Position numbers and translations under genes: made by a program. A stretch of DNA of 64,000 nt, taken from NCBI GenBank assembly GCA_012729055.1, contig JAAYDW010000068.1:62001-126000 (forward strand). Reading direction: 5' to 3'. Shown piece after piece: positions 10,183 to 19,692 of the stretch (position 1 is its first letter; each line of letters starts with the position of its first letter). The notes under the pieces were generated by a model. The model ran no database searches, was not told where the DNA came from, and saw only the letters and a list, made by a program, of their open reading frames with translations. The stretch comes from Deltaproteobacteria bacterium. GTDB taxonomy: Bacteria > Desulfobacterota > Syntrophia > Syntrophales > Smithellaceae.

Positions 10183-10259
10183 AGAAAAAAGCGGGAATGA
10201 AAACCGTAACTTTTTTTTCAACGACAGATCCAATCGCTCCTGAAGCCCGGAGAAAAACC

Positions 10260-12548
10260 ATGAACTGCAAAAAGCGCCTCATTGGACCCTTATTTTTGTT
10301 GCTTGCCCTTCTGCCGCCGGCCGGCGGTTTTGCGGACAGCCGGTTTCCGCTTCCCGACGCTCCTCTTCTGGAAGCGATCAGAAAGGACGACGCCCCGGGC
10401 GTGCAGTCCCTTCTGGAAGCGCCCGGCGGCCGCGAGCTGGTCAACCGTCAGGGGGCAAGGGGGGACAGGCCGCTTGCGACGGCCGCCCGCCGGGGAAACC
10501 TGGCCATCGTCAAACTGCTCGTTGAAAACGGCGCGGCGGTGGACGGCGGGCGGGAAGAGGGAGAAAGAACGCCCCTGCTCGAGGCCGCGTGGCAGGGACA
10601 TGCGGACGTCGTTCAATACCTGATTACGAAAGGCGCGGATGTGAATGCGGGAGGCAAAGGGCTTACGCCGCTGCTTGCGGCCTGCGCCCAAAGCAGTATT
10701 CCCATCGGCCCTCCCGGGAATAAGGCCAAAACGATCCGGATCCTTCTCAAAAACGGCGCGGACGTCAATGCCGCGGACGAGTCGTGGCTGAAAACGGGCC
10801 GGACGCCGCTCATGTGCGCCGTTTTGCACGGAGATCCGGCATTGGTGCAGGCTCTGCTAGCTTGTGGCGCCAGGCAGGATATGAAAAACAAAGACGGAGA
10901 CACGGCCCTGGCGCTGGCCAGGAAAAAGGGGCTCGAGTACATTGCGCAACTTCTGGAAAAAGCCGCCTCCGGCGTGCTGCCTTCGCCGCCCGTCGACGCC
11001 GCAACGGATCCGTTGTTTCAGGCGGTGAAAAAAGGGCGCTTGAAGGACGTGAAAGCTCTCGTTGCGGGGGGCGCAGACGTCAATCTCCGGGATACCTCAG
11101 GAAGCACGCCGCTTTTGCATGCGGCCGACGGCAATTCTCCGGCAATGGTCCGCCTGCTTTTGCGCCTGGGCGCCGACGTCAACGCAAAGAACGGTTCCAA
11201 CAATACGGCGCTGATTTATGCCGCCTTGAAGGGGCATGAGCGGGCGGCGGCGGAGCTTTTAAAAAACAAGGCCGATGCGAACGCGAGGAACATGGCCGGA
11301 CAGGACGCCCTCATTTTCGCGGCGACGGGCGGGAAAGCGAAGATGGTCGGAGCCCTGCTGGCCAGCGGCGCCCGGACGGACAACACCTACGGCGAAGGAA
11401 AAACCGCGCTTCTGGCGGCGGCGAGCGGCGGCCATTCCGGCGTCGCTCAGCTGCTTCTGGCCCACCGCGCGGATGTCAACGCGGCGGACGACAGCGGCCG
11501 GACCGCTTTGATCATCGCCTGCGAAAAAGGCGAGGCCGGTTTGGCGGAAGCGCTTTTGCAGGCCGGGGCGGATGTCGGACGCAAGTCGAAAGACGGAGAT
11601 ACGGCGCTCCATAAAGCCATAGCCGCCAAAAATATCAGGATGGTCAAAATGCTTGCCCGGCATGGCGGAGATTTCGACCGGCGGGAAGCATTGGGCCGGG
11701 CGGTGATTGCCGGCCATCTGGAGACGGTCAAGCTTCTGTACACCAGGGACGTGGACATCAACGCGCGCGGCTTTGCCGGCACAACGCTTTTGATGCTGGC
11801 GGCGGACGAAGATCTGGAACTGGTCAGGTTTCTCGTCGCCCGGGGGGCGGATGTGACCCTGGCCGACGATGAGGGAAACACCGCCCTCATGAAGGCGGTG
11901 ATGTCTTTTAAAAAAACCGGTCCGGCGACGATAAAATTTCTCGCGGCGCACGGGGCCGACGTCAATGCGGTCAACAAAGACGGCGAGACGGCGCTGATTC
12001 TCGCTGTCAAAAAGGACGACGTCCAGGCCGTCCGGACATTGATCGGCCTGGAAAGCGCTTTGGGGACGAGGGACCGGGAAGGAAAATCCGCCTGGACGCA
12101 TGCGTTTGAGCGCGGCAAGACCGATCTCGTGAGCCTGCTGGAAAAAGCCGGAGCGGCCAGAGATTACCTGGGCATGGAATGGAAGGGCCATGTATCGCGG
12201 CAAAAGGAAGCGTTCATAAAAATTGTCGAAACAAAAGAAGAGTGGTCCAATGTGTGGCGAAGGGCGCTGGAAAAGCCGGCCCCGGACGTGGATTTCGAAA
12301 ATTATGTCGTGGCCTCGGTCTTTTTGGGTCATTCCGCCCCCTGGCTGTATTCCATCGGATTTGCCGGCCCCCGGCAGCGCGGCGAAAGGTGGGTGATCTC
12401 GTACGCGCTTCACGATGTGATGCTGCGCCTGACCGGACCTTTTCAGGCGGGCGGCCAGTACGCGATGAAGGTGTTCGAAAAAAAGAAGGGCGCGGAAATG
12501 ATTCTGGAAGAAGCCGGCTCCACATCCGGGAGCCGCCGCAGAAGGTAA
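10260..12548 (+). CDS. Exported long ankyrin-repeat protein
   Basis: A 762-residue protein with a signal peptide (about residues 1-25, ending GGFADS). About sixteen ankyrin repeats follow, recognisable by recurring GADVNA and TPLL/TALI units, from about residue 35 to 635. The last ~120 residues are not ankyrin. They contain ENYVVASVFLGH and a predicted beta-rich segment that faintly resembles the PrcB C-terminal domain. The protein probably acts as a periplasmic binding scaffold. ATG at 10260 follows GGAGA. The first ATG at 10197 would bury the signal peptide. It heads a tight same-strand cluster with the next three genes. The partner is unknown. Confidence 0.85.
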   Translation: MNCKKRLIGPLFLLLALLPPAGGFADSRFPLPDAPLLEAIRKDDAPGVQSLLEAPGGRELVNRQGARGDRPLATAARRGNLAIVKLLVENGAAVDGGREEGERTPLLEAAWQGHADVVQYLITKGADVNAGGKGLTPLLAACAQSSIPIGPPGNKAKTIRILLKNGADVNAADESWLKTGRTPLMCAVLHGDPALVQALLACGARQDMKNKDGDTALALARKKGLEYIAQLLEKAASGVLPSPPVDAATDPLFQAVKKGRLKDVKALVAGGADVNLRDTSGSTPLLHAADGNSPAMVRLLLRLGADVNAKNGSNNTALIYAALKGHERAAAELLKNKADANARNMAGQDALIFAATGGKAKMVGALLASGARTDNTYGEGKTALLAAASGGHSGVAQLLLAHRADVNAADDSGRTALIIACEKGEAGLAEALLQAGADVGRKSKDGDTALHKAIAAKNIRMVKMLARHGGDFDRREALGRAVIAGHLETVKLLYTRDVDINARGFAGTTLLMLAADEDLELVRFLVARGADVTLADDEGNTALMKAVMSFKKTGPATIKFLAAHGADVNAVNKDGETALILAVKKDDVQAVRTLIGLESALGTRDREGKSAWTHAFERGKTDLVSLLEKAGAARDYLGMEWKGHVSRQKEAFIKIVETKEEWSNVWRRALEKPAPDVDFENYVVASVFLGHSAPWLYSIGFAGPRQRGERWVISYALHDVMLRLTGPFQAGGQYAMKVFEKKKGAEMILEEAGSTSGSRRRR

Positions 12549-12552
12549 GGCC

Positions 12553-13182
12553 ATGCGCGAAATTGCCGAAACGGCTTTTGGAAGAAACACGCTGGCGGCG
12601 GGGCTTGTCTGTCATGCCGCGGCCCTTGTGGCGGGCATGCTGTCCGCCTCCGGCGGCGCCGCCTTTTTTCAGATCGTCTATCCCGCCTCCTGGGGACTTT
12701 TGATCGCCGCCTCCTTTGCGCAACTGCGCCACCGCGGCATCCGTCCCTTCGCCGCCTGGCGTTTTTACCTGATCGCGGCGGCGGCGGTGTTCCCCGTTTT
12801 GGGACCGCTCATCGCGCTGGCCCTGCTCTACAGCGCGCCGGCGAGCGGTTCGGCAACGGGCGATCTGACAGGCTGGCCGGCCGCTCTTTGGCGGCTTCGG
12901 GCCAACATCCTGCTTCTTTTTGTTTTGCTCCTGGCTCTTTTTCTGCTCTTTGCCGTTTTGTCCCGGAAAGACGATCCGTATTTTCGACGGCAAAATGCCG
13001 CGGGTGTTGCGTTGCCCGGCGGAGTCAAACACAAAATAAACCGGCCGGCGCCGGAGGCGGAAGACCGGTTGCTCGGAGGCGTAAAAAAGGATAGGAAGAA
13101 AACAGTGTCTTCTGCGGTCGGGTTCCGGAGAGGAGGCTTGGCCGGGAACGCACAAATCAGCGCCGGGCTTGAGACCATGTAA
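12553..13182 (+). CDS. Hypothetical inner-membrane protein
   Basis: A 209-residue protein starting four bases after the ankyrin stop with an AAGG site. Three or four hydrophobic segments are visible in the first 140 residues (for example LVCHAAALVAGML and ILLLFVLLLALFLLF). The C-terminal ~70 residues are basic and low-complexity. No family was recognised. Tight coupling to the ankyrin gene suggests a membrane partner of that protein. A 313-codon frame on the opposite strand is judged a shadow because the plus-strand frame has membrane segments and operon spacing. Confidence 0.6.
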   Translation: MREIAETAFGRNTLAAGLVCHAAALVAGMLSASGGAAFFQIVYPASWGLLIAASFAQLRHRGIRPFAAWRFYLIAAAAVFPVLGPLIALALLYSAPASGSATGDLTGWPAALWRLRANILLLFVLLLALFLLFAVLSRKDDPYFRRQNAAGVALPGGVKHKINRPAPEAEDRLLGGVKKDRKKTVSSAVGFRRGGLAGNAQISAGLETM

Positions 13183-13200: not shown

Positions 13201-14064
13201 ATGCGCAAGGTTTTATTTTTTCTGGCCGTTCTGATTTTTCTGGCCGCGCCGCTTTACGCCGCGCAATCCACGATCAAGATTGCGGAAGGATCGTCCTGCA
13301 TGGGCGACGACAAATCCCGCAAGCAAACCGAAGCGGCGGCGCTGGCCGAGGCCAAGCGCAACGCCGTCGAATCCGTCAAAACCTATGTATCGTCCGCCAC
13401 CGAGGTTAAGGACTTCGAGCTTCAGCAGGATCTGGTGTCCGCTTACGCCAACGCCACGGTGACAGTTTTGGAGGAGCTGGAAAAGGGGTGGTACAAGGAC
13501 CCCGCGACGGGCGACTGCTATCGGATCAAGCTCAAGACGGAAGTCGTTCCCGATGAAAAGGCGATGAAGAAGGCGCAGCAAAAAGCCAAAGAGGCAGCCT
13601 GGGACGATCCGTCCATGCCGCTGTCCGTGAAGGTCTGGACGGACAAGGCCGACTACCGCGCGGGCGAAAAGATCCGGATTTATCTCAAGGGCAACAAGCC
13701 GTTTTACGCCCGGGTGATTTACCGCGACGCAGCCGGCAGCCACCTGCAGCTTTTGCCCAATCCCTACCGGCTGGACAATTATTTCCAGGGCGGCGTGGTC
13801 TACGAGATTCCCTCCGGCCGCGACCGGTTCGAACTGGAAGTTCATCCGCCCTTCGGCGAGGAAAACATCATCGTTTACGCCAGCGTGTCGGAACTGGGCG
13901 GACTCGCCCTCAGGGAAGAAGGCGCGGTTTTTGCCGTGAAGACCCGCGCCAAAGACATCGGCGCGAAAACGCGCGGTGTGAAAGTTCAGGCGGCGACCGA
14001 AGGCAAGCCCGACGCGCCGGCGGAATTTTCCGAAGGCCGCGCGGCGGTCAAAACCCGCAAGTGA
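13201..14064 (+). CDS. Exported DUF4384 domain protein
   Basis: 287 residues with a signal peptide ending APLYAA. A helical, alanine-rich N-terminal domain resembles the LPP20/FlgT class (EAAALAEAKRNAVESV). A DUF4384-like beta domain follows at about residues 140-240, with YRAGEKIRIYLKGNKPFYARV and LLPNPYRLDNYFQGG. Such domains occur in cell-surface and envelope-stress proteins of proteobacteria, with no assigned reaction. ATG follows AGGGAGGG. It is the third gene of the ankyrin cluster and lies 29 bases before the BMP-type gene. Confidence 0.8.
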   Translation: MRKVLFFLAVLIFLAAPLYAAQSTIKIAEGSSCMGDDKSRKQTEAAALAEAKRNAVESVKTYVSSATEVKDFELQQDLVSAYANATVTVLEELEKGWYKDPATGDCYRIKLKTEVVPDEKAMKKAQQKAKEAAWDDPSMPLSVKVWTDKADYRAGEKIRIYLKGNKPFYARVIYRDAAGSHLQLLPNPYRLDNYFQGGVVYEIPSGRDRFELEVHPPFGEENIIVYASVSELGGLALREEGAVFAVKTRAKDIGAKTRGVKVQAATEGKPDAPAEFSEGRAAVKTRK

Positions 14065-14093: not shown

Positions 14094-15881
14094 ATGAAAA
14101 AAACGGGAATAGTATTTTCGCTGTTGCTGCTGGCAGGAATTCTTCTGGCCGCGGGGCAGGCCCTGGCGCTTGCGCCGCAGCCGCCGACCGTCGCGCTGAT
14201 TTTCGATATCGGCGGCCGGGGGGACGGCGGCTTCAACGACGCGGCCCAGCGGGGTCTGGAAAAAGCCGTCTCCGAACTGGGTGTGAAGGCCGTTTATATC
14301 GAGCACCGGCGGAATCTGGAGCTCGCTCACGCCGTCGACGAAGCGGCGGCCTCCGACGCGCGGGTGATCATCGGCGTGGGATTTGCTTTTTCGGAAAAGC
14401 TCCGGCGTCTGGCCGTCCGCTATCCCGACAAGAAGTTCATCGGTGTGGACTACAGCGCTGAATACGACGAACAGGGCCGGCTGATGCCCCTGCCCGCCAA
14501 TCTGGCGGGACTTTCGTTCCGGGAAGAGGAGGGTTCTTATCTGGTCGGGGCCATAGCGGCGCTCAAGAGCAAAACGGGCCGGATCGGTTTTGTGGGCGGC
14601 ATGGACAGTCCGCTTATCCGCCGGTTTCAGGCGGGCTATCTGGCGGGCGCGCAGGCGGTCCGTCCCGACGTCCAGGTTCTCTCCCGCTACGCCGGCATCA
14701 CAGGCCGGGCCTTCAACGATCCGGCCAAAGGCTACCGCTTGGGCATGCGTTTGTATCGGGAGGGTGCGGACATCATCTATCATGCGTCGGGTGTGACGGG
14801 CAACGGCGTTTTCCGCGCGGCGAAGAAGATGAACCGCCTGGCCATCGGCGTGGATATCGACCAGAGCGCGCAGGCGCCGGGACATGTGCTGACGAGCATG
14901 ACCAAGCATGTCGACGTGGCGGTGTTCAACAGCGTGCGAGACTGCGCCGCGGGCCGCTTTACCGGCGGACTTAAGACGTTCGGCCTCAAGGAAAATGGCG
15001 TCGGCTTCGTGTACAACGATGAAAACAAGAAGCTGATTTCCGACGAGATCTACGCCCGGGTGTCCGATCTGCAGGCGAAGATTATTGCCGGCAAGTTGAA
15101 AGTGACAGCCGTCGCCGACCAGCCCTTCCTGCTGTCGCGACAGAATCTACAGAACTTGCTTGCGGATCTGCGCTCGGAAGTCGAAAGCGCGCTTCGTAAA
15201 CTGGACGGCGATCTGCAGCGCAGCGCCCGGGCGCTGGCCGGCCGGGACCTGCAGGGCGACGACGCGCGGCTTGCTCTGCAGAAGCTTTACGCCGACAATC
15301 CCTACATCATCGACTGCGAAACGGTCAGCGACCAGGGCATCATGCTGGCCGTGGAACCGCCCGCGCACAAGTCATCCGAAGGCGCCGACATCAGCAGACA
15401 GGCGCACATGATCAAACTGTTCAAGACGCGCCGGCCGGTGCTGAGCGGATCGTTTAGGTCCGTCGAAGGCCCGCAGGCCGTGGTCATTCACCATCCCGTC
15501 TTTTCCGCGGACGGACGCTTTGCCGGCTCCATTGCGGCGTTGTTTGCCCCGGAATATCTTTTTTCCGGAATCATAGGACCGGTGGCCGCCGGTCTGCCCG
15601 TCGGTTTTTTCCTGATGCAGACCGATGGATTGATCATCTATGATGTGGCGACGAACCAGGTCGGACACGCGGCCGCTGAAAAGCAGCGACGGCCGTTTCT
15701 GGAACTCACAAAAGCGGCGGGCAAAATGGCCGCCGCTCGGGCGGGGAATGAGTCGTACACCTATTCGAGGAGGCCGGGGGAAGCGCCGGTGACGAAGGTA
15801 ATTCTGTGGCAGACAGTCGTGTTGCACGGCACGGCGTGGCGTCTCGGCGTCGACTGCGCGACGGAGCATCTGGAAAAATAG
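14094..15881 (+). CDS. BMP/PnrA-type periplasmic binding protein fused to a Cache-like domain
   Basis: 595 residues with a signal peptide (ending GQALA). Residues ~30-340 are a basic-membrane-protein (PnrA/Med) fold, the binding protein of nucleoside-type ABC importers: FDIGGRGDGGFNDAA, KFIGVDYSAEY, KSKTGRIGFVGGMDSPLI. After a helical linker, residues ~345-590 resemble the dCache sensory domain (LYADNPYIIDCETV, FFLMQTDGLIIYDV) that normally sits outside chemoreceptors and kinases. No transmembrane or signalling segment follows. No ABC permease is adjacent. It ends three bases from the convergent hybrid histidine kinase, which is a candidate signalling partner. This joining is unusual. Confidence 0.8.
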   Translation: MKKTGIVFSLLLLAGILLAAGQALALAPQPPTVALIFDIGGRGDGGFNDAAQRGLEKAVSELGVKAVYIEHRRNLELAHAVDEAAASDARVIIGVGFAFSEKLRRLAVRYPDKKFIGVDYSAEYDEQGRLMPLPANLAGLSFREEEGSYLVGAIAALKSKTGRIGFVGGMDSPLIRRFQAGYLAGAQAVRPDVQVLSRYAGITGRAFNDPAKGYRLGMRLYREGADIIYHASGVTGNGVFRAAKKMNRLAIGVDIDQSAQAPGHVLTSMTKHVDVAVFNSVRDCAAGRFTGGLKTFGLKENGVGFVYNDENKKLISDEIYARVSDLQAKIIAGKLKVTAVADQPFLLSRQNLQNLLADLRSEVESALRKLDGDLQRSARALAGRDLQGDDARLALQKLYADNPYIIDCETVSDQGIMLAVEPPAHKSSEGADISRQAHMIKLFKTRRPVLSGSFRSVEGPQAVVIHHPVFSADGRFAGSIAALFAPEYLFSGIIGPVAAGLPVGFFLMQTDGLIIYDVATNQVGHAAAEKQRRPFLELTKAAGKMAAARAGNESYTYSRRPGEAPVTKVILWQTVVLHGTAWRLGVDCATEHLEK

Positions 15882-15884
15882 CTG

Positions 15885-18449
15885 CTAGGAATTCCCGGCG
15901 CGTTCCGGGGGGCGGCGGCTCGCCGCGATGGCGTCTTCGATGGCGCAGCACAGCTCCTGCTGGTCGAAAGGTTTGCGCACCAAGAGATGCACGTCTTTCG
16001 TGTCTTCGCGGCTCAACGTCAGCGCGCCGTGCCCCGTCATGATCATGAAGGTTTTCTCCGGCTCCAGGCTTTTCATGGTTGAAATCATCTCGCAGCCGTT
16101 CATGTCCGGCATGCACTGATCGGAAATGACCACGTCCACATCGTCGCTGTGTTCCCGGTACCACGTGAGCGCGTCTTTCGGATTGTCGAAGATGACCGCG
16201 CTGTGGCCGAGATTTTCCGCGTACTTTTCCATGATGTCCAGCATGTACTTTTCGTCATCCACCACCAGCAGGCGCCGCAGGACGGGAGGCTTTTCGGGGA
16301 TCCGGCGTGTTTCCTCCCGCGCGTCGGCGATGAGCAGATCCATCTCGAAAGTCGTCCAGCTTTTGCCTCGCCTGGCCTCGTCCGCGGGCCGGCCGTTTTT
16401 TTCCGGGGGGATGAAATCCGTGGTGTGGCGGATGCGCGCGCCGAAGCGGTCCAGCGTGCTCTTTACCGCCAGCAGTCCGATGCCGCTGCCGCCATGCGTT
16501 GAACGGACCTTTTCCGCAAACAGACGGGCGAGGACATGCTCCGGAATGGGCGGACCGTCATTGGCCACGCACACCCGGATGACGTCTTCCGCCTGCGTGT
16601 TTTCTTCCTTTTCCCAGGAAATGCTGATCACGTTGCTGCCGCCGCGGGGAAACTCGGCGACGGCATTGTTGATCAGGTTGACGACGACGCCCATGAATTC
16701 TCCGGCGTTGCCGAACACCGTGACGGGCGGCGATGTCTCGCAGATCTCGACGGAAACGGTTTTGCCCTGATCCTGCGCCATGGGCTTGTACTGGCCCTTG
16801 GACAGGGACACGGCGCCGCGGATGGCCGGCCGCATCTCGAAGCTGCCCAGGGAATGATCGCGCTTGACATAGTCCCGGATGCCGGACGTGACGTCGCGGA
16901 TGACCAGGCCGCCGCTGTCCACGTAAGAGAGATATTTGCGCGCGGCTTCCAGATTTTTCCGGAATTCCAGGAGCTGGCGGGGAAGCTGCCCGGTCAGGAA
17001 ATGCTGCAGCGGCGGGAAGAAGCCGTTGCCGCCGGTTTCCGGCCGGGTGGACGGATCTTCGGTCGGCGCGCTCGGGAGAGCCTGCGCCAGTTCTCCGCGC
17101 GCCGTCTCGATGCGGGCCAGCGTCTTTTCCATCCGGGACAGATACATGCGGGTGAGGTCCTGGCCGCCGGTGATGCCCCCGAGCGCGTTGTTGATGTCGT
17201 GGCTCAGGCCCGCGACCAGCGCGGCGATGGCTTTTTCCGTCGAGGCCTGCGCGAGCGCCGCGTCCTTGGCCACAAGTTCCGCCTCCATTTGCTTGAGGTC
17301 GCTTACGTCCTCAGACATGCCCAGGAGATACTCCAGCCGCCCCCGCTCGTCGTAGAGGGGAATCAAATTGGATTTCAGGGTGGACAGGCGGCCGTCGCTC
17401 GCGGGGACCGTATGTTCGAAAGTGACGGCCGATCCGGTGCTGAGCGCCGCGTCCTCGAATTCGGAAAGCACGCGGGAGAGTTGGGGGGAATTGCGGCGGA
17501 GGTCGTCCCACATTTTATTGCCGATGACGTACCGGCCGTCGTTCTTGTAATCCTTCATGTACACGGCCATCGGAAAATTGCCGAAGACCTTGGCCGTCAG
17601 ATCGCGGCTCTTGAGCAATTCCTCTTCGGCCTTTTTTCGCTCGGTGATGTCCTTCGCGATGCACATGACCGATCCGACGCCTTCCTCCCGGGTTTTTACC
17701 GGATCGATGCTGGTCATGTAGTAATGCGCCTCGCTTGGCCGGGGGACCCATATCTCCATTACGTGATGGCGGCCGTCGGCGAAGACCTCGGTTACCGCGG
17801 CGTGGAGCCGGTTGGCTTCCTCCTGGGGAAACATGTGCCAGACGAGCTGCCCGGGGATGTCCGAGACGTCCATCCCCACGGCCTTTGCGAAGGCCCGGTT
17901 GGCGTAGCGGAAGGTGCCGTCGGGGTTGAAGATGAAGATCAGGTCGTTGGATTCTTCAAACAGGATTCGGTATTTTTCTTCGCTTTCCCGCAGCGCTTCC
18001 TCGTTTTGCTTCTGCCGCGTGACATCCGTCTGCACGACGATCATACGCAGCGGCCGGCCGTCCCTGGCGACGACCCGGGCCATGTTCAACACCCAGCGAT
18101 AGTCGCCGTCCCGGTGCAGGATGCGGTATTCGCAGTTGACGGTTTTGACTTCTCCCCGGACCAGCAGGGCGAATGCCGCGAAGGTTTTGTCCCGGTCGTC
18201 GGGATGGACCAGTCTTTCCCAAAATGAAATATCGCCGCCCATGTCGTGCGCGTCATAGCCTAGCATGGACATCCACTGGCGCGAAAAATGCGCTTCATTG
18301 CTTTGGACATTCCATTCCCAGACGCTGTTGCCCGCATCTTCCAGAACGGCTTTCAGCACGTCCCGGCCTTCGCGCCGGGCGCGTTTCTCCCAGCTGGAAA
18401 AAGCGCCGCGGAAAAAGTCATGGATTTTCTCGAGCTTAAAGCCGGGCAT
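15885..18449 (-). CDS. Three-PAS hybrid sensor histidine kinase with receiver domain
   Basis: An 854-residue cytoplasmic kinase with no transmembrane segment. Domain order is PAS (about 37-147), PAS with PAC (150-275), PAS (285-390), HisKA with GLSHDINNALGG (His417), HATPase (N-box NLINNAVAEF near 591, G-box GGSGIGLL near 653), and a C-terminal receiver (VVDDEK near 729, phospho-acceptor Asp777, Lys826). The unusual HDINNAL form of the H-box is found in some Desulfobacterota kinases. The start is ATG at 18449 after AAGG. Upstream in-frame codons overlap the divergent esterase promoter region. It probably transmits phosphate to an unlinked regulator. Confidence 0.9.
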   Translation of the reverse strand: MPGFKLEKIHDFFRGAFSSWEKRARREGRDVLKAVLEDAGNSVWEWNVQSNEAHFSRQWMSMLGYDAHDMGGDISFWERLVHPDDRDKTFAAFALLVRGEVKTVNCEYRILHRDGDYRWVLNMARVVARDGRPLRMIVVQTDVTRQKQNEEALRESEEKYRILFEESNDLIFIFNPDGTFRYANRAFAKAVGMDVSDIPGQLVWHMFPQEEANRLHAAVTEVFADGRHHVMEIWVPRPSEAHYYMTSIDPVKTREEGVGSVMCIAKDITERKKAEEELLKSRDLTAKVFGNFPMAVYMKDYKNDGRYVIGNKMWDDLRRNSPQLSRVLSEFEDAALSTGSAVTFEHTVPASDGRLSTLKSNLIPLYDERGRLEYLLGMSEDVSDLKQMEAELVAKDAALAQASTEKAIAALVAGLSHDINNALGGITGGQDLTRMYLSRMEKTLARIETARGELAQALPSAPTEDPSTRPETGGNGFFPPLQHFLTGQLPRQLLEFRKNLEAARKYLSYVDSGGLVIRDVTSGIRDYVKRDHSLGSFEMRPAIRGAVSLSKGQYKPMAQDQGKTVSVEICETSPPVTVFGNAGEFMGVVVNLINNAVAEFPRGGSNVISISWEKEENTQAEDVIRVCVANDGPPIPEHVLARLFAEKVRSTHGGSGIGLLAVKSTLDRFGARIRHTTDFIPPEKNGRPADEARRGKSWTTFEMDLLIADAREETRRIPEKPPVLRRLLVVDDEKYMLDIMEKYAENLGHSAVIFDNPKDALTWYREHSDDVDVVISDQCMPDMNGCEMISTMKSLEPEKTFMIMTGHGALTLSREDTKDVHLLVRKPFDQQELCCAIEDAIAASRRPPERAGNS

Positions 18450-18585
18450 TCTCCGCCTTTCTCGGTCGTTTTTTATTTGGTGAACATCTGGTGTAAAATG
18501 ATGTATGTATTCTATCCATGTCGCCGGAAAAATCAAAGGATTTTTCGGGCGGCCGGCGCGGATGCGGCAGGGAGGGGTATCGGGT

Positions 18586-19692
18586 ATGAGAAAAAAAAGA
18601 CTTATCACGTTCATCCTGACGACGGTGTTTGTCGTGTGGCTTGCGGGATCCGGCGCTTGGGCCGATGATCTCCGGCCGGCGCGGGGAACTCTGGACCGGT
18701 GTAACATCGACCTTCAGCAAAGTTCCGTTTCGGGACTTTCGGCGGGCGGATTTATGGCCGGTCAGTTTTTGGCGGCCTACTCCGGCGTGATGTCGGGCGT
18801 CGGCGTATTTGCCGGCGGCCCTTACGGCTGCGCGCGCGGCGACATCATCAAGGCCCTCGACGACTGCATGGCCTGTCCATCCCTGCTCACGTTTGCGGTG
18901 ATGACCGATCTGGTGCAGAAAGCCCGCGCGCTGGCCCGCGAAGGCCGGATCGATCCCCTGGAGAATCTGCACAGCAAAAAAGTGTACCTCTTCAGCGGGC
19001 TCGCGGATAAAACGGTTTCCCCCGGCGTGGTGGACCGGGCCTACGACTGGTATCTGAAAGCAGGCGTCCCGCGCGCCGGCATCCATTACAAGAAAAGCGT
19101 GCCGGCGGGGCATGCAATGCCTACGGTTGCATACGGCAATGCCTGCGATGAAGTGGACCGGCCGCCCTGGATGAGCGCCTGCCGCTATGACGGGGCGGGA
19201 GAAATGCTTAGGCATATCTACGGGCCGCTGAAGCCGGCGCGAAAGGCGACGGGCCGGCTCATCGAATTTGCGCAAAAGGATTTTGTCGATTTTGCCCCGG
19301 CGACGCCCGGAGAACTGGCCGCCCGGACCGGCCTGCACGAGTTCGGCTACGCGTATGTGCCGAAATCCTGCGCGGACGGAGCTGTGTGCCGGATTCACGT
19401 GGTGTTTCACGGCTGCCGCCAGATTGTCGATGCGGATCCGGAAGGGAAGGATCTGCAAAAAGGCGGCGTTCCCTTCGGCCTGCAGATGGTGCTCCACGCC
19501 GGATACAACGAATGGGCCGACGCCAATAACCTCATCGTCGTGTATCCCCAGGCGCAGAAAAGCGCGGCCAATCCCAACGGCTGCTTCGACTGGTGGGGAT
19601 ATCTCGGCGGCGGCCCGGACGCCTACCTGACGAAGGATGCCCCGCAGATGAAGGCGGTGCGCGCCATGATGAAGGCCGTGAGCGGGAAATAA
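18586..19692 (+). CDS. PHB-depolymerase-family exported esterase
   Basis: A 368-residue alpha/beta hydrolase with a signal peptide (ending SGAWA). The nucleophile elbow GLSAGGFM, a candidate Asp in SGLADKTVSP and a candidate His in PAGHAMPT form a likely catalytic triad. The family hydrolyses polyhydroxybutyrate or related polyesters, and many members are feruloyl or acetyl esterases, so the substrate is uncertain. Cysteine-rich stretches (CARGD..CMACP) suggest periplasmic disulfides. ATG at 18586 follows GGGAGGGG. An upstream ATG (18505) would lie before the signal peptide. It is divergent from the hybrid kinase. Confidence 0.85.
   Translation: MRKKRLITFILTTVFVVWLAGSGAWADDLRPARGTLDRCNIDLQQSSVSGLSAGGFMAGQFLAAYSGVMSGVGVFAGGPYGCARGDIIKALDDCMACPSLLTFAVMTDLVQKARALAREGRIDPLENLHSKKVYLFSGLADKTVSPGVVDRAYDWYLKAGVPRAGIHYKKSVPAGHAMPTVAYGNACDEVDRPPWMSACRYDGAGEMLRHIYGPLKPARKATGRLIEFAQKDFVDFAPATPGELAARTGLHEFGYAYVPKSCADGAVCRIHVVFHGCRQIVDADPEGKDLQKGGVPFGLQMVLHAGYNEWADANNLIVVYPQAQKSAANPNGCFDWWGYLGGGPDAYLTKDAPQMKAVRAMMKAVSGK

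Follow-up and report, generated by a model that had tools for sequence, protein, structure and literature searches.

A conserved family of proteins joining a BMP-type binding domain to a double Cache domain

The fusion gene and its neighbours

The stretch of DNA analysed here (64,000 nucleotides, called the window below) contains a plus-strand open reading frame that starts with ATG, is closely preceded by the Shine-Dalgarno-like AGGAGAGG and encodes a protein of 595 amino acids. This protein combines a binding domain of the BMP/PnrA type with a double Cache (dCache) domain, and we refer to it simply as the fusion. Upstream on the same strand lie, in order, an ankyrin-repeat gene, a small membrane protein gene and a DUF4384 gene, with gaps of 4, 18 and 29 bases down to the fusion, and a kinase is encoded convergently on the other strand. 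The features are as follows.

10197-12548, plus strand: ankyrin-repeat protein with an N-terminal hydrophobic segment, heading a probable operon (Ank Pfam models, hydropathy)
12553-13182, plus strand: small protein with three hydrophobic segments (hydropathy)
13201-14064, plus strand: DUF4384 protein, apparently exported (PF14326 at 1.3e-23, hydropathy)
14094-15881, plus strand: BMP-dCache fusion gene (open frame, Pfam and PDB matches, ten-member family)
14094-14171, plus strand: N-terminal export signal, residues 1 to about 26 (hydropathy and sequence; cleavage site inferred)
14193-15107, plus strand: BMP/PnrA binding domain, residues 34-338 (PF02608; alignment to BmpA 9q1u, BmpD 6shu and PnrA/TmpC 2fqw)
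15138-15860, plus strand: double Cache domain taking up the C-terminus, residues about 349-589 (5ERE match, subfamily profile, PF22309)
15885-18707, minus strand: convergent kinase, on the strand opposite to the fusion

The initial annotation of this locus had described the kinase as free of membrane segments, and hydropathy agrees. It had also allowed for an indirect link between kinase and fusion, which we abandon: the two genes lie on opposite strands, hydropathy gives the kinase no membrane segment, and the stretches of 9.5-20 kb read around the nine other fusions that we located yielded no relative of the kinase. We reject the kinase as a partner; it is probably unrelated to the fusion.

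The genes on the other side are more consistent companions within the genus. A DUF4384 gene lies upstream on the same strand at all five full-length fusion loci of the genus. The orthologue is directly upstream of the fusion at three loci: L029 and L030, each truncated by a contig end, and L031, where it follows the genes of two WD40 proteins whose ends are caspase-like. In L032 two WD40-caspase genes stand between it and the fusion. The small membrane protein also has a homologue in L031 (49% identity over 133 residues). Outside these loci the picture changes. The stretches read around the fusion in L004, L092, L135 and L136, the readable loci not known to belong to the genus, yielded neither a DUF4384 gene nor a caspase gene (the L091 stretch ends just upstream of its fusion and was left out of this comparison). 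The linkage therefore looks like a genus trait, and the fusion stands without DUF4384 elsewhere; this is what came of the suggestion in the initial annotation that the accompanying genes be compared.

Several further observations concern these neighbours. Four large WD40 proteins with caspase-like C-termini and N-terminal hydrophobic segments are encoded in the same cluster as the fusion (L031:11799-19461 and L032:2571-7486), and in one of this set, a protein of 1413 residues, the catalytic histidine looks lost by eye. Among the window genes tested with Pfam, none contains a caspase domain. Elsewhere in the genome of the window (L142:6943-11917) there are three caspase-like genes, all encoding an N-terminal hydrophobic segment and two of them ankyrin-like repeats; behind them comes the only other DUF4384 match of the genome besides the neighbour of the fusion. 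In genome G019, DUF4384 sequence and the C-terminal part of the Cache domain share a single open reading frame (L036:8626-9531), which was probably either left behind by a deletion or produced by faulty assembly.

Two binding domains in one exported chain

The BMP half is recognised with ease. Residues 34-338 match PF02608 (Bmp) at 7.8e-62, with 209.4 bits against a curated cut-off of 24.1, and a phmmer search of the PDB returns, among other matches, BmpA (9q1u), Lbp (7x0r), 4pev, BmpD (6shu) and TmpC (2fqw). The C-terminal half is matched by PF22309 (3e-35, residues 366-486, positions 15189-15551), a sensor domain that occurs in kinases, cyclases and chemoreceptors. The general dCache_1 model reaches 30.3 bits, under its cut-off of 45, no NCBIfam family scores above its cut-off for the protein, and Pfam matched no signalling or output domain anywhere in it.

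The identity of the C-terminal half follows from comparison with a solved structure. Searched alone against the PDB with phmmer, this part has 5ERE as its sole match (residues 328-561 of 5ERE, 2.3e-38). The whole fusion aligns to the same entry over query residues 342-588 (4.9e-38), and a profile built from 29 members of the Cache subfamily retrieves 5ERE only, at 3.5e-76. Given this clear homology, the C-terminal half has a Cache fold: residues 322-562 of 5ERE are a double Cache domain with cytosine (PMC8694187). The initial reading of the protein as a nucleoside-type binding fold combined with a Cache domain is therefore borne out. Its own alternative, that the C-terminal half is the ordinary end of a BMP protein, is ruled out, because the PF02608 match already stops at residue 338, at profile position 298 of 301. 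A structure predicted with AlphaFold from an alignment of two sequences (the window protein and its L004 relative) had a mean pLDDT of 38, with about 20-34 per ten-residue block in the Cache part, too low for a usable model.

The protein of 5ERE (Dret_0059 of Desulfohalobium retbaense, a chain of 568 amino acids) was solved in soluble form and carries the same dCache subfamily at its C-terminus, so the arrangement of the fusion is not without precedent. The N-terminal parts differ, however: phmmer finds one matching stretch between the two proteins, limited to the Cache part, and no alignment with the BMP half. The 5ERE protein is named an extracellular ligand-binding receptor. We considered a branched-chain-type binding protein for its N-terminus, and PDB searches with two such proteins did not list 5ERE; its N-terminal type therefore rests on the name.

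The pocket of the BMP half could be compared with those of solved relatives. In BmpA the pocket includes Asp19, Asp24, Phe27, Asp98, Phe151, Phe176, Ala200, Val224, Asp225 and Lys242, and BmpD adds Asn28 (PMC13325309). By alignment to BmpA, BmpD and PnrA, with the numbering matched by eye, the BmpA residues correspond to D38, D44, F47, D119, F178, F207, A231, V253, D254 and K271 of the window protein, and Asn28 of BmpD corresponds to N48. All eleven mapped residues are present, including the stacking pair F47 and F207 and the sugar-side D119, D254 and K271. Ten of the eleven positions are identical in all ten fusions, and the remaining one (V253) is alanine in two. Such a complete pocket leads us to predict that the BMP half binds a nucleoside or a nucleoside-like molecule. 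Against this prediction, almost all Bmp-family proteins in the model bacteria treated in PMC9602780 are predicted there to bind sugars. The pocket is a trait of the BMP family and not of the fusion, as three BMP-only proteins retain 9, 10 and 10 of the eleven positions; in the same kind of alignment, two proteins that fuse BMP to an SBP_bac_3 domain retain 5 and 1. Such BMP-SBP_bac_3 fusions occur in three genomes with similar gene surroundings (L145:8670-10427, L146:7547-9232 and L147:8304-10094). Compared with PnrA/TmpC, BmpA and BmpD, the BMP half thus shares the PF02608 fold family and the mapped pocket residues, but the solved chains stop after the binding domain, whereas the fusion adds the Cache extension.

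The ligand of the Cache half is harder to predict. The ligand subfamilies dCache_1AA, AM and PU have a conserved aromatic pair, W followed by F or Y, in the definition given in PMC11245519, and compared with that definition none of the 29 rows of our Cache subfamily alignment has the pair. Amino-acid, amine and purine motifs therefore do not predict what this half binds. The purine sensors of dCache_1PU, such as McpH, also have the double Cache fold, and nucleobase-type ligands are conceivable for the fusion; those sensors, however, span the membrane and share a conserved W-F pair (PMC11245519), a pair missing from all 29 rows. For the second Cache lobe, 24 of the 29 rows agree with a loosely defined LNxF....Y pattern, and four of the five misses keep a variant recognisable by eye. 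The window protein itself differs in this stretch (15666-15692), where relatives carry an LNxFxDPLY-like sequence and it shows no recognisable variant.

A hydropathy scan of the fusion protein gives one N-terminal segment and one stretch at residues 489-508 within the Cache domain. The latter aligns with 5ERE and is therefore not read as a membrane helix. Since the N-terminus has no cysteine, the export signal is not of the lipoprotein type, a difference from several solved PF02608 proteins that are named lipoproteins. The layout of a transmembrane Cache receptor, with two flanking helices and an output domain, is absent by hydropathy and Pfam, and there is no C-terminal helix. This agrees with the earlier description of a protein free of membrane and signalling parts: the only hydrophobic segment outside the Cache fold is the N-terminal one. 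Judged from its sequence, the fusion protein is apparently soluble and exported. A sensor domain of this kind is normally membrane-anchored, and its combination with BMP is conserved yet uncommon.

Recurrence of the fusion and of its Cache subfamily

The initial annotation had proposed asking whether the fusion recurs in related genomes, and it does: nine other full-length fusions bring the family to ten members. Full-length fusions were found in 7 of 155 genomes of the class, five of these being among the 20 genomes of the genus, and in 4 of 395 sampled genomes of the phylum, two of the four being already among the seven of the class (up to three candidates per genome were scored in the phylum search). 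One further member, L004, comes from a named MAG. Pairwise identity among the ten ranges from 57 to 92%, with 231 invariant columns, and the window protein is 63-66% identical to its genus relatives versus 64-66% to two members of another class. Ratios of dN/dS (NG86) for five pairs are 0.19, 0.21, 0.19, 0.30 and 0.18, the pair of window and L004 being near synonymous saturation. The fusion family is under purifying selection, and a chance or misannotated fusion is excluded by the ten members, the invariant columns and these ratios. A tree of the ten rows has good support for three of seven inner branches and does not resolve the depth, so we make no claim of transfer between lineages. The fusion is a conserved protein family, for which 5ERE already offers a solved soluble precedent; we found no paper describing a BMP-Cache fusion in a literature search that mostly covered journals free of subscription.

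The same Cache subfamily also occurs outside the fusion. It is found alone (for example in L046), after an sCache_2 domain (L039, L044) and after a dCache_1 domain (L042, L045, L093). In L033 (965-2710) it is fused in front of a DctP binding protein of the TRAP type, and in L040 a Cache-only gene and an SBP_bac_3 gene (3-890 and 887-1735) overlap by four bases, like a coupled pair. Short proteins with this Cache domain and no BMP half are present in 25 of 155 class genomes, one of them interrupted by an in-frame stop and another lying at a contig end; these were counted by hand as matches to the Cache part at E <1e-20 within an open frame of 245-640 amino acids, with the G019 remnant excluded. 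Among 13 BMP-less subfamily proteins taken from both searches, hydropathy gives 12 just one segment, close to where the open reading frame begins, and L140 none above threshold. Long open reading frames (674-1363 amino acids) with the same Cache subfamily are present in four of the nine fusion genomes searched. The one that was scanned (G000:C15) is kinase-like, with an N-terminal and a second hydrophobic segment.

These short proteins do not fit what has been written about Cache domains. In PMC4822843, Cache is the largest superfamily of extracellular sensors in prokaryotes and is described as working through membrane helices. Its domains had been found only in proteins with output domains, with the exception of SMP_2, interpreted there as a sensory module severed from the rest of its protein, and a C-terminal membrane helix is given as their only way to signal.

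A possible periplasmic co-receptor and its alternatives

The initial annotation had proposed a soluble co-sensor, and from the sequences this idea is plausible. Our preferred reading, which we put forward tentatively, is that the fusion is a soluble exported two-site binding protein and works as a periplasmic co-receptor for a membrane partner instead of supplying an ABC transporter. The BMP half would close on a nucleoside or nucleoside-like molecule, as its pocket predicts. The dCache half is of the kind that in receptors lies between two membrane helices; here the BMP domain takes the place of the first helix, and the chain ends after the Cache fold. Occupancy by a nucleoside, possibly with a second ligand in the Cache half, could then alter how the protein associates or docks, and the loaded fusion might act on its membrane partner much as other binding proteins stimulate receptors.

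Such stimulation of receptor domains by binding proteins is described as a general and widespread mechanism (PMC9602780). In favour of a co-receptor, the Cache subfamily is paired with binding proteins of several classes, namely BMP in ten fusions, DctP in L033, SBP_bac_3 in L040 and, going by its name, the 5ERE protein, and nearly all BMP-less members scanned have only the one hydrophobic segment near their start. On the other side, no receptor partner adjoining the fusion was recognised at the ten loci read, and a possible membrane partner, in the form of the long open reading frames above, is present in fewer than half of the fusion genomes searched. The description of 5ERE as a monomer (PMC8244302) counts against a dimer step and lowers our confidence slightly. 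A comparison can be made with known periplasmic signalling. In LuxP-LuxQ and other pairs of binding protein and receptor, a binding protein of the periplasm cooperates with a membrane-bound sensor of the Cache type, the two being separate proteins. The fusion likewise combines a binding protein with a Cache-type sensor, but in one soluble chain, and no LuxP/LuxQ-like membrane sensor was recognised next to it, the adjoining kinase having no membrane segment by hydropathy and not being found at the other loci.

The most conventional alternative is transport, with the BMP half delivering a nucleoside to an ABC transporter whose genes lie elsewhere; the Cache half would be only an accessory, for instance for tethering. 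BmpD is described as the binding protein of a family of ABC-type nucleoside transporters (PMC7093131), and the genome of the window has 20 matches to the permease family PF02653. These matches amount to ten loci, however, each with one ATPase open reading frame and none with two Walker A motifs in a motif scan of 7.5-14 kb stretches. The ATPase of a BMP-type transporter has two ATPase domains. Four of the permease loci, read gene by gene, resemble branched-chain amino-acid systems by eye, and PF02608 itself matches the genome once, at the fusion. Nor were BMP-type transporter genes recognised at the fusion loci: L091 has an ABC-like ATPase open reading frame 2.0 kb from the fusion, L092 has an open reading frame with a loose motif match that by eye is something other than an ABC ATPase, and L135 has a convergent frame resembling, again by eye, a peptide-type binding protein. 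Because no BMP-type transporter was recognised and the permease loci have single Walker motifs, we favour the co-receptor over transport, which we consider unlikely.

About as unlikely as transport is a periplasmic ligand store or scavenger with no dedicated receptor, in which the Cache half, as a detached sensor, would do no more than bind or buffer its ligand. The short BMP-less relatives are common, which suits this idea, as does the reading of SMP_2 as a cut-off module (PMC4822843), while the fusion or coupling of the subfamily to several classes of binding protein suggests a shared functional reason. We regard as more improbable still that the fusion does the sensing for a periplasmic module that also contains DUF4384 and exported WD40-caspase-like or ankyrin proteins and controls envelope proteolysis. 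The constant DUF4384 gene of the genus loci, the WD40-caspase-like clusters in L031 and L032 and the second DUF4384 gene behind three caspase-like genes in L142 would all be in keeping with such a module, yet the four loci not known to be of the genus have neither gene type around the fusion, the window genes tested have no caspase domain, and the linkage of DUF4384 to the fusion could be a single inherited event.

The co-receptor reading can be extended from the fusion to the subfamily. It is possible, although somewhat unlikely, that the phylum holds a genuine class of exported helix-less Cache proteins, coupled to binding proteins of several unrelated kinds, which act as soluble dual-input co-receptors. 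If true, a C-terminal membrane helix would not be required for Cache signalling, against what was stated in 2016 (PMC4822843), and a conserved soluble subfamily repeatedly joined to nutrient-binding proteins would show another use of Cache. This general pattern is more interesting than the fusion gene alone, for which the complete predicted nucleoside pocket offers a direct ligand candidate. The genome of the window also encodes a paralogue with a PF22309 Cache domain (L048:8451-9716), a protein of 421 amino acids that has a hydrophobic segment at its N-terminus and an additional region at the C-terminus.
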